Assembly (NCBI GenBank): GCA_027488135.1
Contig: JAIYCH010000038.1
Location: 1-64,000, forward strand
Reading direction: 5' to 3'
Origin: Saprospiraceae bacterium
GTDB taxonomy: Bacteria > Bacteroidota > Bacteroidia > Chitinophagales > Saprospiraceae
Length of the DNA stretch: 64,000 nucleotides
Shown: positions 30,444 to 34,997 of the stretch, one piece after another
Numbering within the stretch: position 1 is the first letter of the stretch
Layout: every line of letters begins with the position of its first letter
Made by a program: the position numbers and the translations under genes
Notes under the pieces: model-generated
Database searches by the model: none
Seen by the model: the letters and a program-made list of their open reading frames with translations, nothing else
What the model was told of the DNA's origin: nothing

Positions 30444-31541
30444 TTAAAATCTTTCTGTTCCAGGTAATGCTGATTTTAAAAAAGGCGGTTCATAGAGAGG
30501 AAGTTCATGGGAATATTCCATGCCATTAAGGAACGCATTAATCAATAAGGTAATTTGTTTATACTCCACTAAAAAACCGTCATGGCCGTAGATACTATCA
30601 ATTTCAAAAAATGAGGCACCCTCAATATTCTTAGCTAAAAACCTTTGTTCCTCGATGGGAAAGAGAATATCTGTTTTAATACCAATGACAAAAGTTTTAC
30701 TTTTTATTTTTCCCAGTGCATTTTCCAAACCCCCTGCTTTTCTGCCCACATCATGACTATCCATAGCTTTTGACAGGGTAAAATAAGACCAGGGATTAAA
30801 TCTTTTCCACAATTTCAAGCCTTGGTATTGTTGATAAGAAGCAGCTTTGAAGTTTTCTATCTTGTCTGTTTCAGCCGATTCAGCCTGGGTAAGGGAGTAT
30901 GTATTATAATGTCTGTAAGAAATCATACCAATAGCTCTTGCCGCTTCCAAACCCGCCTTTCCAGCATCGGGTAAGGATGGATTAAAGAAACCGGGGTCGG
31001 CTTTTAAGGCCATTCTTTGAGTTTCATTGAAAGCGATGCCCCATGGAGAATGCCTGGCATTGGTTGCCAAAAGAATGAGATGAGCAAAGCGAGTGGGTTC
31101 ATCAACGGCCCATTGAACCATTTGTTGTCCCCCCATGGAACCTCCAATACCTATGAAAATCTGATGAATATCTAATGCTTTTGCTAAGCCTTTATGCGCT
31201 TGCACCTGATCTTTAATGGTGATTAAGGGAAAATCGGAATAATACGGAAAACCTGTTAGCGGATTAATATCTAATGGACCAGAGGAACCGTAACAAGAAC
31301 CCAGATTATTGGCACAAACAATAAAATATTTTTCCGGATCGAAGCATTTTCCAGGTCCCACTAATCCTGCCCACCAATCGGAAGCATCTGCGTTTCCAGT
31401 GAGGGCATGGGTAACCCAGATGACATTATTTTTTTCCTTATTCAATTCACCAAAAGTATGGTAATAAACAGTGAGTTCAGGCAGTATTTCTCCCGATTCA
31501 AGTAAAAAAGGACCATCAGATCGCCAAAGCAAACCCTTCAT
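30444..31541 (-). CDS. metX: Homoserine O-acetyltransferase
   Basis: 365 residues, alpha/beta-hydrolase fold. It transfers acetyl from acetyl-CoA to homoserine, the committed step to methionine. Marks include 'WVTHALTGNADASDWW', 'GSSGPLDINPLTG', the nucleophile elbow 'GGSMGGQQMVQWA' (Ser135), 'SPWGIAFNETQRMAL', the acid 'IKTDILFP' and the catalytic His in 'GHDGFLVEY'. It provides the substrate of MetY, encoded upstream across an 82-bp gap that contains a hairpin. Under the same SAM/Cys leader if the operon is read through. Confidence 0.9.
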   Translation of the reverse strand: MKGLLWRSDGPFLLESGEILPELTVYYHTFGELNKEKNNVIWVTHALTGNADASDWWAGLVGPGKCFDPEKYFIVCANNLGSCYGSSGPLDINPLTGFPYYSDFPLITIKDQVQAHKGLAKALDIHQIFIGIGGSMGGQQMVQWAVDEPTRFAHLILLATNARHSPWGIAFNETQRMALKADPGFFNPSLPDAGKAGLEAARAIGMISYRHYNTYSLTQAESAETDKIENFKAASYQQYQGLKLWKRFNPWSYFTLSKAMDSHDVGRKAGGLENALGKIKSKTFVIGIKTDILFPIEEQRFLAKNIEGASFFEIDSIYGHDGFLVEYKQITLLINAFLNGMEYSHELPLYEPPFLKSALPGTERF

Positions 31542-31623: not shown

Positions 31624-32989
<1,366 letters not shown>

Positions 32990-33035
32990 CAGCTTCCAGA
33001 AATTTCCAAACGTTAAAAAAAGGAAATAGGAATGA

Positions 33036-33088
33036 CTGTTAGTTGAAAAAACAACAACAGCAACAACAACTGTTTTGAGCACAGTTGT
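33036..33088 (-). promoter_or_regulatory. Two hairpins overlapping the Cys-codon run
   Basis: Hairpin A: ACAACTGT (33066-33073) with ACAGTTGT (33081-33088), 8 bp perfect, covering the lone upstream Cys codon and the first codon of the run. Hairpin B: CTGTT-A-GTTG (33036-33045) with CAACAACAG (33052-33060), 9 bp with one bulge and a 6-nt loop, covering the last Cys codons and the stop. A ribosome moving through or stalling here would open or block both. Seven T's (minus strand) lie at 33021-33015, but 14 nt beyond hairpin B, too far for a textbook terminator. Confidence 0.65.
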
Positions 33089-33158
33089 CTGTAATAAAAA
33101 TAGAGATAAGAAAGACTACTCCCGAGGAGGAAAAAAGATGCAATAAGTTGGCGTTCAT
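33039..33158 (-). CDS. Poly-cysteine leader peptide of metY
   Basis: An ATG at 33158 opens 39 codons: begins MNANLLHLFSSSGVVFLI and ends NCAQNSCCCCCCFFN. The six consecutive Cys codons (33068-33051: TGT TGT TGC TGT TGT TGT) plus one five codons earlier are hard to explain by chance next to a sulfhydrylase gene. The reading frame continues upstream through the aptamer, but the ATG 9 nt after riboswitch P1 is the sensible start. Poly-Cys leader peptides that sense charged tRNA-Cys are established in mycobacteria. The same function is inferred here. The next gene, metY, starts 116 nt downstream. Confidence 0.75.
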   Translation of the reverse strand: MNANLLHLFSSSGVVFLISIFITDNCAQNSCCCCCCFFN

Positions 33159-33167
33159 AGACACACA

Positions 33168-33278
33168 GATTTTATAGTTCCAAAATAAATTGGCGGGATT
33201 TGGCACCGTTGCATGATACTCATTCATGGTTGCCAGAGGTTCTGTGAGCCCGATCTCTCCCCTCTTCTGTATAAAATC
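33168..33278 (-). ncRNA. SAM-I class riboswitch (S-box) upstream of metY
   Basis: The minus-strand RNA shows the S-box core in order: P1 GATTTTATA (33278-33270), GAGGGGAGAGATCGGG (33264-33249), the kink-turn/J element GGCAACC (33234-33228), then GGTGCCAAATCCCGCC (33207-33192), closed by TATAAAATC (33176-33168). P1 is a perfect 9-bp helix. The order and the conserved GGCAACC and GGTGCCAA-TCC blocks are those of SAM-I/IV riboswitches, which bind S-adenosylmethionine and lower expression of methionine genes. No terminator directly follows P1, and the leader-peptide ATG is 9 nt beyond it, so translational control of the leader is plausible. Confidence 0.88.
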
Positions 33279-33304: not shown

Positions 33305-33335
33305 CAAAATTAAAATTAACTTTGAAAAAAGGCAA
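33305..33335 (-). promoter_or_regulatory. Promoter of the metY leader
   Basis: On the minus strand TTG (33335-33333), 20-nt spacer, TAATTTTG (33312-33305). This is a perfect fit to the Bacteroidota consensus TTG-N17..23-TAnnTTTG. The predicted start is about 20 nt before riboswitch P1. Confidence 0.75.
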
Positions 33336-33408
33336 GTTAAATCGAAAAAAGTATGAAATATTTTTCATTTTTGACCATGTTTTGATTTCATATTATAACG
33401 ATACCCAA

Positions 33409-33828
33409 ATGAATTTAACCCTTTCGCGCTTATCTGCGCCATATCATTTTGCCATAAAAAATGCGTCGGGAAATACGGTGGAAACCGATGCATCCACTGA
33501 CATTGGCGGAGGCGATGCCGCTTTAAGGCCTATGGAATTATTGTTGGCAGGACTCTCTTCCTGCAGCAGCATTGATGTTGTCTTATTACTACAAAAAATG
33601 AGGCAACCTCTCATGGATATTAAGGTTGATATCAAAGCAGAGCGGCGCCAAAATGAAATCCCTTCGTTATTTGAAAAAATACATCTTCATTTTGTTCTTT
33701 ATGGTGCGTTAGATCATGAAAAGGTAGAAAAAGCCATTGATATGTCGATTGATAAATATTGTTCCGTGGCAAAGATTCTGGAAAAAACATGTACGATTAC
33801 CTGGGATTTTGAAATTCTACCTGCATGA
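33409..33828 (+). CDS. OsmC/Ohr family protein
   Basis: 139 residues from the ATG at 33409; an in-frame ATG 87 bp upstream would run into the divergent leader region. The OsmC fold is indicated by 'RPMELLLAGLSSCSSIDVVLLL' and 'MSIDKYCSVAKILEKTCTI', with the two family cysteines at Cys52 and Cys118. OsmC-like proteins reduce organic hydroperoxides by thiol chemistry, although some have other roles. Its stop overlaps the metZ start by 4 bp, tying it to sulfur amino-acid synthesis. Confidence 0.85.
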   Translation: MNLTLSRLSAPYHFAIKNASGNTVETDASTDIGGGDAALRPMELLLAGLSSCSSIDVVLLLQKMRQPLMDIKVDIKAERRQNEIPSLFEKIHLHFVLYGALDHEKVEKAIDMSIDKYCSVAKILEKTCTITWDFEILPA

Positions 33829-34997
33829 AACCAAAGCATTTTGAATCTATAGCCATTCGGGAACAAATGGAGCGAACGGCTTATAGGGAACATAGTACGC
33901 CCCTATTTTTGACCTCCAGTTTCACCTTTCCCTCTCCGGAATTGATGGCAGATACCTTTCAAGGGGAAGGAGACGGACTAATATATTCGCGGTATAACAA
34001 TCCAAATACAGATGAATTTATTAACAAAGTTTGTTTGCTCGAAGGCGTTGAGGATGGGTTTGCTACCGCCTCTGGCATGTCTGCAGTATTTGCCAGCATT
34101 GCCCCTTTTGTTTCTCAAGGTGACCATATTTTGGCTTCCAGGGCACTATTTGGTTCCACTTTGCAAATATTGGGTCAGATATTATCAAAATGGGGTGTTA
34201 CTTTTACCTTAACAGACCCGGCGAATCCAAAAGACTGGGAAGAAAAAATACAACCTAATACCCGAATGTTTTTATTGGAATCTCCCTCTAATCCAGGATT
34301 AGCCCTGGTTGATTTAACGGCAGCAGGTGCTTTTTGTAAAAAAAATAACCTCCTTTTCAATATAGACAATTGTTTCGCCACCCCATATTTGCAAAATCCA
34401 GCGAAATTTGGAGCCGATCTAATCGTTCATTCAGCTACTAAATGGATGGACGGGCAAGGCCGCGTATTAGGTGGTATCGTGGTAGGTAACGCTGAATTGA
34501 TAGAGAAAGTACGCTTTTTTTGTCGGCATACCGGTCCGGCTATGCCTCCTTTTAATGCATGGATACTTAGTAAAAGTTTAGAAACACTGGCTGTTAGAAT
34601 GGATAGACATTGCCAAAATGCCCATCAAATCGCCCAGTTTTTATTAGAAAGAAGGGAAATAAATCAAGTAATCTATCCTTTTTTACCCTCCCACCCGCAA
34701 TATGAATTGGCAAAAAAACAAATGAAATGCGGAGGCGGTATAGTAAGTTTTGAAGTAAATGGAGGGCTAAAAGCGGCTATGTCCCTTTTAAATGAATTAA
34801 AATTTTGTTCTCTTTCATCCAATTTAGGAGATACCAGAACGATACTCACACACCCTGCCTCAACCACTCATTCCAGACTAAGCTCTGATGAAAAAAAAGC
34901 GGTTGGCATTACCGAAGGACTTATTAGAATATCTGTTGGATTAGAGCATATTGATGATATAAAAGCAGATTTAGCGCAGGCCATGGAAAAAATATAG
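33825..34997 (+). CDS. metZ: Trans-sulfuration PLP enzyme, O-succinyl/acetylhomoserine sulfhydrylase type
   Basis: 390 residues. Cys/Met-metabolism PLP family with 'STPLFLTSSFTF', 'YSRYNNPNTDEF', 'TASGMSAVFA', 'SRALFGST' and the PLP lysine in 'IVHSATKWMDGQGR' (Lys206). It is closer in length and motif wording to MetZ-type enzymes than to the MetY copy at 31624-32922. It would make homocysteine (or cystathionine) from an activated homoserine. Translationally coupled to the OsmC gene (ATGA overlap). It lies divergent from the riboswitch and so outside its control. The substrate is not settled by sequence alone. Confidence 0.8.
   Translation: MKPKHFESIAIREQMERTAYREHSTPLFLTSSFTFPSPELMADTFQGEGDGLIYSRYNNPNTDEFINKVCLLEGVEDGFATASGMSAVFASIAPFVSQGDHILASRALFGSTLQILGQILSKWGVTFTLTDPANPKDWEEKIQPNTRMFLLESPSNPGLALVDLTAAGAFCKKNNLLFNIDNCFATPYLQNPAKFGADLIVHSATKWMDGQGRVLGGIVVGNAELIEKVRFFCRHTGPAMPPFNAWILSKSLETLAVRMDRHCQNAHQIAQFLLERREINQVIYPFLPSHPQYELAKKQMKCGGGIVSFEVNGGLKAAMSLLNELKFCSLSSNLGDTRTILTHPASTTHSRLSSDEKKAVGITEGLIRISVGLEHIDDIKADLAQAMEKI

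Follow-up and report, generated by a model that had tools for sequence, protein, structure and literature searches.

The window, by which we mean the whole stretch of 64,000 nucleotides that was analysed, carries on its minus strand the following features, given in the direction of reading.

33305..33335, minus strand: predicted promoter TTG-N20-TAATTTTG, a pattern found at the same place in 7/7 genus members
33169..33277, minus strand: SAM-I riboswitch aptamer (RF00162), 71.3 bits against a gathering score of 44.4, covariance model matched over its full length (model 1-108)
33039..33158, minus strand: leader open reading frame (ORF) of 39 codons plus TAA, its ATG 10 nt past the aptamer end
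33051..33068, minus strand: six consecutive Cys codons, TGT TGT TGC TGT TGT TGT, identical in 7/7 genus species
31624..32922, minus strand: metY, O-acetylhomoserine sulfhydrylase (TIGR01326, 671.8 bits), the presumed regulated gene
30444..31541, minus strand: metX, homoserine O-acetyltransferase, 82 nt behind metY (NF001209, 338.4 bits, cut-off 331)

The frame at 33158..33039 is exactly the one reported in the initial annotation. It encodes MNANLLHLFSSSGVVFLISIFITDNCAQNSCCCCCCFFN followed by a stop, it ends as described there in six Cys codons and Phe-Phe-Asn (then TAA), and the gap of 116 nt is reproduced, since the leader stop ends at 33039 and metY begins at 32922. The SAM-I aptamer, which lies on the same strand as the leader, was absent from that annotation. 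The match at 33277..33169 is the sole SAM-I match found in the genome, and no Rfam family besides SAM was found in the window leader at E up to 1. Upstream of the aptamer, a promoter of the Bacteroidota type, TTG-N20-TAnnTTTG, is predicted in 7/7 genus species; 147 nt separate the end of the box from the leader ATG, and the transcript is expected to start about 140 nt before this ATG. TAnnTTTG is described as the sigma-A box in PMC9723704. Downstream, metX presumably belongs to the metY operon and would be transcribed together with it.

The leader frame is also open in the 5' direction through the aptamer as far as an ATG at 33368 (109 aa). Because the ORF begins next to the aptamer end in other genera, we take the ATG at that place as the leader start. 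Five consecutive TGY codons occur at just two places in the 4.2-Mb genome (both strands, all frames), one being the leader and the other the antisense of a poly-Gln stretch in a 550-codon frame, so the Cys run is more than a chance occurrence. Divergent from metYX, the plus strand of the window contains at 33322-34997 an OsmC-like gene and an O-succinylhomoserine sulfhydrylase-like gene, both below curated cut-offs; two sulfhydrylase types, metY and this divergent gene, thus stand side by side.

Conservation within the genus was assessed in seven species, namely the window and G001-G006; L001, whose leader sequence is the same as that of L088, was omitted from these counts. Loss of the Cys run in relatives had been named in the initial annotation as a finding that would tell against a regulatory leader, and no such loss is seen: 7/7 species retain the leader frame with its six Cys codons and stop, despite an in-frame indel of 3 nt among the Phe codons. 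Among the 38 leader codons compared, 16 are variable and 13 of these change the amino acid, which indicates that most of the peptide is under no strong constraint while the frame and the Cys run are constrained. The block around the leader stop is nearly invariant in the genus beyond its coding part.

Recurrence of the leader in Bacteroidota

We used two samples of loci. The first (set A) consists of the 80 best MetY relatives in the genome collection; being chosen by MetY likeness, it is not random, and its related species are not independent of one another. A SAM aptamer was found by Rfam upstream on the metY strand in 63/80 loci, and within 700 nt in 60. The remaining 20 were dropped because there was no aptamer at the gathering score, the aptamer was more than 700 nt off, or upstream DNA was missing. 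A leader ORF was defined as the longest ORF with its ATG 4-16 nt after the aptamer, at least 12 codons, and a stop at least 20 nt before metY, and a leader was called Cys-ending when 3 or more of its last 12 residues are Cys.

By this definition, 52/60 metY loci have a leader ORF, starting 5-15 nt after the aptamer, whereas 200 dinucleotide shuffles gave 5.6 on average and never more than 12. The initial annotation had proposed a search of Bacteroidota genomes for short frames with four or more Cys codons before metY/cysK; by the three-in-twelve definition, 40/60 metY loci have a Cys-ending leader, against a shuffled mean of 0.04 and a maximum of 1. These 40 loci include Saprospiraceae, Lewinella, Pedobacter, Mucilaginibacter, Sphingobacterium, Hymenobacter, Cyclobacteriaceae, Thermonema, Crocinitomicaceae and Flavobacteriaceae. 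The modal offset of the leader ATG from the aptamer is 7-10 nt, and the gap between leader stop and metY has a median of 120 nt and a range of 31-287 nt (52 leaders). Eight of the 60 aptamer-bearing metY leaders have no ORF by the definition, among them L047 and L056, which have a Cys-rich ORF farther off; in addition, 12/52 leader ORFs of set A, and 4/8 of the second sample described below, are not Cys-ending. That the leader is real and widely conserved we regard as practically certain.

The ORF also occurs apart from the aptamer. Where no SAM aptamer lies within 700 nt and at least 300 nt of upstream DNA is available, 4/18 metY loci (L054, L058, L066 and L068) have a Cys-ending ORF, with 0.18 expected, and a low-threshold scan of 10 loci without SAM, these four included, revealed no hidden aptamer. 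The peptide module can therefore exist alone, and the peptide part may be older than, or separable from, the riboswitch link. Note that L066 belongs to a metagenome-assembled genome labelled Lysobacterales; its metY is 72% identical to that of the window with a Cys-rich ORF ahead of it, and it is perhaps mis-binned.

In the second sample (set B), riboswitches were found first in order to escape the bias of MetY likeness. A SAM riboswitch match is present in 143/197 Bacteroidia genomes, and set B comprises the 110 top-ranked loci among the riboswitches listed, excluding G234 (at a contig end), the window's own riboswitch and lower-ranked matches. A downstream gene was found at 109 of them (L124 was dropped for having none), and these genes were sorted by likeness to the window proteins, metY being assigned at 60% identity or more. 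A leader ORF precedes 8/9 metY genes (4 Cys-ending), 1/6 metX genes (1 Cys-ending), 1/14 MetY paralogues (none Cys-ending) and 3/80 other genes (none Cys-ending). Altogether, riboswitches before genes other than metY have an ORF in 5/100 cases and a Cys-ending one in 1/100, this being a metX. An ORF that ends in ACCCR is present at the ninth metY locus too (L152), but its ATG still falls within the aptamer, close to the end, and so outside the definition. Many of the other genes start with a motif that we take to be methionine synthase (MetH)-like. Three genomes combine a metY leader ORF with a second SAM riboswitch that has none, namely G073 (L196 and L147, respectively), G134 (L173, L144) and G164 (L165, L197), so the contrast between metY and other genes holds inside genomes too. 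Short ORFs containing PHPVHRVGLF, which stand ahead of a different gene in one genus (L103, L118, L138, L169), were rejected as leaders, as they look like a terminator hairpin read as protein.

Two metX loci deserve description. At L174 (G229), metX has its own SAM riboswitch and a Cys-rich leader, MTTSKFKQQLSKSKLSNHQHCCCMTCCCMH, 10 nt after the aptamer, so that the module is found also at another gene of the pathway. At L175 (G034, in the family of the window), there is no leader ORF and the metX ATG itself lies 11 nt after the SAM aptamer; this spacing is that of many leader ATGs and fits translational control at such a distance.

Two genera were then covered in depth, using the 30 best-scoring of 60 genomes in the genus of G134 and of 61 in that of G164. 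We call them Pedobacter-like and Mucilaginibacter-like because one locus in each shares its leader peptide with L009 (Pedobacter) or L007 (Mucilaginibacter). Cys-ending leaders were counted at 24/30 and 30/30 loci, respectively, figures that rely on the candidate richest in Cys among those close to the aptamer and so lean to Cys; L218 and L227 have no clear leader.

The composition of the leaders points to selection on codons. In the last 45 nt of 52 leaders, 241 TGY triplets are in frame and 73 and 16 are in the other two frames, and TGT and TGC are mixed in 36/39 in-frame runs of three or more Cys, which indicates that the codon meaning is selected. In the 60 leaders of sets A and B, the last 15 residues contain 30.1% Cys and 10.1% Met, compared with 1.39% and 0.66% in the preceding residues, although the most Cys-rich ORF among the candidates near the aptamer was taken for this count, a choice that favours Cys. 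At least three Cys plus Met residues are found in the last 15 of 51/60 leaders. Met is likely a second regulatory codon. The 15 leaders with fewer than three Cys do not have more Met than the rest (mean 1.4 against 1.56); L050, L072 and L184 are Met-rich among them, L159 has two Met only, and L136 has neither Cys nor Met in its last 15 residues. A motif CGAATG[CT]G (Arg-Met-Arg/Cys) near the leader end is common to L030, L035, L042, L049, L060, L010 and L013, i.e., Sphingobacterium, Hymenobacter and one member of the Flavobacteriaceae, and might be a structural element instead of a signal carried by codons.

Of the initial proposal, a regulatory leader of Cys codons before metY is strongly supported, as the run is frame-specific, uses both Cys codons, is gene-specific and is widespread. 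The idea of a stand-alone cysteine sensor is not, because the ORF adjoins a SAM-I aptamer in 52/60 loci, Met codons are enriched, and some relatives have few or no Cys codons.

A proposed two-input switch and its alternatives

The recurrent order is promoter, SAM-I aptamer, 5-15 nt, leader ORF ending in Cys (often with Met), a spacer of about 120 nt, and metY, and it is nearly confined to metY. This recurrence across Bacteroidota suggests that sulfur amino-acid synthesis is under an RNA switch that reads two signals. In the window, the RNA around and after the Cys codons contains the following predicted elements.

33052..33061, minus strand: strand 1, Cys-codon arm of predicted stem 1:2, pairing with 33045..33035
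33022..33041, minus strand: strand 2, the leader stop UAA plus UAACAG, UUCC and AUUUCC arms, kept in 7/7 species
32987..33007, minus strand: strand 3, partner of strand 2, with the GGAAAU, GGAA and GCUGUUG arms of predicted stem 2:3
32966..32991, minus strand: predicted 3:4 hairpin of 11 pairs with loop UUAA and no U-tract after it

The Cys codons, the leader stop and the downstream arms could thus form competing 1:2, 2:3 and 3:4 stems in the genus of the window. Stem 1:2 is predicted at -8.8 to -9.0 kcal/mol in 7/7 species and has no two-sided change. Stem 2:3 (17 pairs) is predicted at -12.3 to -14.7 kcal/mol, again in 7/7; its loop is variable and its arms are nearly invariant, so there is no covariation there. 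The 3:4 hairpin has up to 11 pairs and -7.2 to -17.6 kcal/mol across the genus. At its predicted position, 96.1% of cells are paired, compared with 26-64% when it is slid, and the value does not exceed a letter-shuffle control; 8/11 pairs vary on one side and none on both. Near-constancy of strand 3 is as expected, since this strand would pair with both strands 2 and 4.

A common stem scheme for the phylum was not found, and the competing stems are clear in the genus of the window only. A phylum-wide 1:2 pairing between the Cys run and the next 45 nt is not supported (mean z -0.46, control 0.06). The metY spacers are predicted to fold a little more stably than shuffled ones (mean z -1.2 to -1.8). 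In the Pedobacter-like genus, where 28/30 loci were aligned, there is another hairpin with two-sided changes, C-G to U-A at several pairs. About 10-65 nt past the leader stop, these loci (L208-L237) show a near-invariant CUUCC...GGAAGG, then the covarying hairpin, often with UACGC and with no U-tract.

We propose that the switch would work as follows. When SAM is bound, P1 would be closed, and as the 3' strand of P1 would lie in the leader initiation region, the leader would stay untranslated and metY off; judging from the position of the leader start, SAM binding would mask it in this way. Bacteroidota generally rely little on Shine-Dalgarno pairing. When SAM is absent, the leader would be translated, and if charged tRNA-Cys (or tRNA-Met) is scarce, the ribosome would stall in the codon run and block the 1:2 pairing, so that 2:3 would form and metYX would be on. 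If charged tRNA is plentiful, the ribosome would reach the stop codon within strand 2, the 3:4 hairpin would form and transcription would be arrested prematurely. Expression of metYX would then require that SAM and charged sulfur amino-acid tRNA both be low. We consider it probable that the leader senses charged tRNA-Cys and tRNA-Met and is gated by the SAM riboswitch. For the wider proposal of a phylum-wide gate with two inputs, in which the leader ORF, and not a terminator or the start codon of the gene itself, is the output of SAM-I and the codons of this ORF read both charged tRNA-Cys and charged tRNA-Met, the balance tips only slightly in favour.

The main alternative is that two independent regulators stand in series, i.e., a SAM riboswitch with its own output and then an ungated Cys attenuator. 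The Cys-ending ORFs kept at 4/18 metY loci without a nearby SAM aptamer would fit such an arrangement, as would the terminator-like sites (at -8 kcal/mol or lower) in 13/52 metY leaders, above the 3.8 obtained with 10 shuffles. However, such sites are rarer here than in other SAM leaders, where they occur in 59/88 (shuffled 7.1, 10 shuffles; 6/94 leaders shorter than 40 nt were dropped from this count), which indicates that the usual output of the riboswitch is often missing at metY and that the ORF takes its place. Moreover, a fixed short distance between aptamer and ATG would be needless if the two devices were independent; before other genes, the aptamer-to-start distance has a median of 90 nt and is within 20 nt in 2/80 cases. 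At metY, the aptamer usually neighbours a start codon, not a terminator. We therefore regard the in-series arrangement as unlikely.

The same counts bear on how the gated leader would stop transcription. A classic intrinsic terminator in the metY spacer was rejected, being present in a minority of leaders and with no U-tract after 3:4 in the genus of the window, and the arrest is probably not of this kind. Sequestration of the metY start is not favoured either, as 7/7 predicted genus folds leave the final 27-40 nt, metY ATG included, single-stranded. In the 50 nt after the leader stop, metY leaders have 25.1% C and 15.8% G, with C exceeding G in 47/52, compared with 18.4% C and 17.7% G in other SAM leaders. 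Such a C-rich, G-poor spacer may weakly hint at Rho, and Rho acting on it is our best guess for the arrest, although a tentative one that we would put somewhat below an even chance.

A second alternative reverses the sign, so that stalling at the Cys codons turns metY off and spares sulfide for cysteine synthesis. MetY and cysteine synthases do compete for sulfide, and a CysE-like protein is present in 29/42 metY genomes. On the other hand, Met codons are enriched too, and stalling at these would shut a methionine gene during Met starvation; the Met enrichment fits the proposal that a stall means on. In addition, no CysE/CysK route was found in the genus of the window. In five of its genomes (G000, G001, G002, G005, G006), CysE was not found, the best match having 36.9 bits, where the apparent CysE of other genomes gave 151-174 bits in the same search (118 for one interrupted copy), although 0/20 pass the curated cut-off. 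No CysK over the cut-off was found in the same five genomes, and the CysK model exceeds 100 bits in them only for beta-synthase-like frames of about 380-461 aa; the 461-aa frame scores 477.9 with the cystathionine beta-synthase model, below the cut-off of 510.25. MetY may thus feed both amino acids in this genus, supplying methionine and, via homocysteine, cysteine. We consider the reversed sign improbable.

This metabolic argument does not extend far. Cys-ending leaders are found in 19/29 genomes with a CysE-like protein and in 10/13 without (hand tally), so the presence of CysE is not predictive and the metabolic rationale is weakened outside the genus of the window. Loss of CysE/CysK as a general reason for the leader is accordingly unsupported, and fits this genus and some others only.

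Even less probable is that the peptide itself acts, either as a nascent chain that arrests the ribosome or as a small thiol peptide sensing redox state or a metal. Six adjacent Cys are unusual, and endings like CxCMCCC are seen repeatedly within one genus. The remaining sequence, however, is not common to genera, the number and spacing of Cys vary, Met-rich versions exist, and the ORF is tied to the riboswitch and the gene. A varied peptide sequence with a constant type of codon fits sensing of tRNA better than an active peptide. Finally, we give hardly any credence to the Cys codons being a by-product that merely mirrors a GUU-rich terminator tail or an RNA stem: the window does have a terminator-like hairpin at 33089..33065 followed by a (TTG)n-T tract, but this hairpin is strong (about -10 kcal/mol) in only 2/7 species (the window and L083) and weakened in 5/7 (about -4.6 in four and -1.4 in one) with the frame kept and the Cys run intact in 7/7, and the TGY triplets are biased to one frame (241/73/16) and mixed in codon, so this reading was dropped.

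If the gated leader works as proposed, it would provide a ready-made two-input RNA gate and would explain how Cys and Met are balanced in bacteria that may make cysteine from homocysteine. It also raises the question of how transcription of such leaders is ended in Bacteroidota when an intrinsic terminator is not apparent.

Relation to known systems

As in attenuators of the trp type, the leader is brief and its regulatory codons cluster towards the end, with conservation of the encoded amino acids (7/7 in the genus; 40/60 in the phylum sample). It departs from that type in its output, as 3:4 lacks the U-tract of an intrinsic terminator and terminator-like sites occur in just 13/52 metY leaders. 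The mycobacterial polycysteine uORF, on which experimental work was reportedly presented by Canestrari in 2020, is said to be leaderless and closely coupled to the next gene. The window leader resembles it in having a Cys run near the end of a short uORF in a sulfur operon; it differs in that a riboswitch precedes the ORF, which is thus not leaderless, and in that a 116-nt gap takes the place of close coupling.

In the accessible open-licence literature, we found neither a Cys-codon leader described for Bacteroidota nor a SAM riboswitch coupled to such a leader. 'Strong clues' for leader-peptide attenuation before amino-acid operons are mentioned for F. psychrophilum (PMC9723704), the tables of which could include metY, and short ORFs reminiscent of leader peptides are mentioned for B. 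thetaiotaomicron (PMC7366714). Furthermore, a Bacteroid-trp motif is listed in PMC2864571, SAM riboswitches in Bacteroidetes/Chlorobi are noted in PMC2211319, and a SAM-II switch that acts on a distant start codon is described in PMC9373788.

The Cys leaders of actinobacteria (cys operon of Mycobacterium and P. acnes, cbs of B. longum; PMC1262725) are likewise short ORFs with a Cys run near the stop, located before sulfur genes without an obvious terminator, and Rho was proposed there. Our leaders differ from these in phylum and gene, in the SAM-I aptamer directly before the ORF, in the enrichment of Met codons, and in position, since the ORF begins about 140 nt into the predicted transcript, i.e., is not leaderless, and is separated from the gene by 116 nt. 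The uORFC-8-2 motif before cysS of Rhodobacterales (PMC8632094) has been proposed to act through ribosome-mediated attenuation, its first stem containing Cys codons, as is predicted here. In contrast, it has two Cys codons, a 3' run of U as for an intrinsic terminator and an aminoacyl-tRNA synthetase gene, with no riboswitch mentioned in the accessible text. The tandem attenuators of Salmonella mgtCBR (PMC3641672) differ in having two short leader ORFs, and neither a metabolite aptamer nor a Cys run is mentioned in the part available.

SAM-I (S-box) riboswitches before other genes of Bacteroidia belong to the same aptamer family (RF00162) and the same bacterial class as that of the window leader. 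They differ in that, next to their more frequent terminator-like sites (59/88), a leader ORF follows in 4/94, none Cys-ending (MetY paralogues and unclassified genes, metX apart). In the way the riboswitch would be used, the window leader is like the B12 riboswitch-uORF of ppe2 in M. tuberculosis (PMC11260477), where the riboswitch controls initiation at the uORF and translation of the uORF sets the downstream gene. By position the window leader is of this type, its ATG lying 10 nt past the aptamer end and within reach of the ligand-dependent helix. In ppe2, however, the uORF overlaps the gene, termination-reinitiation is at work, the ligand is another one, and the accessible text mentions no run of regulatory codons. 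Leader-peptide attenuation and riboswitches are usually seen as separate solutions to amino-acid sensing. The metY leaders place the two a constant short distance apart, for a single gene and in numerous species; if the proposal is true, one mRNA leader would join a small-molecule signal with a signal of translation speed.
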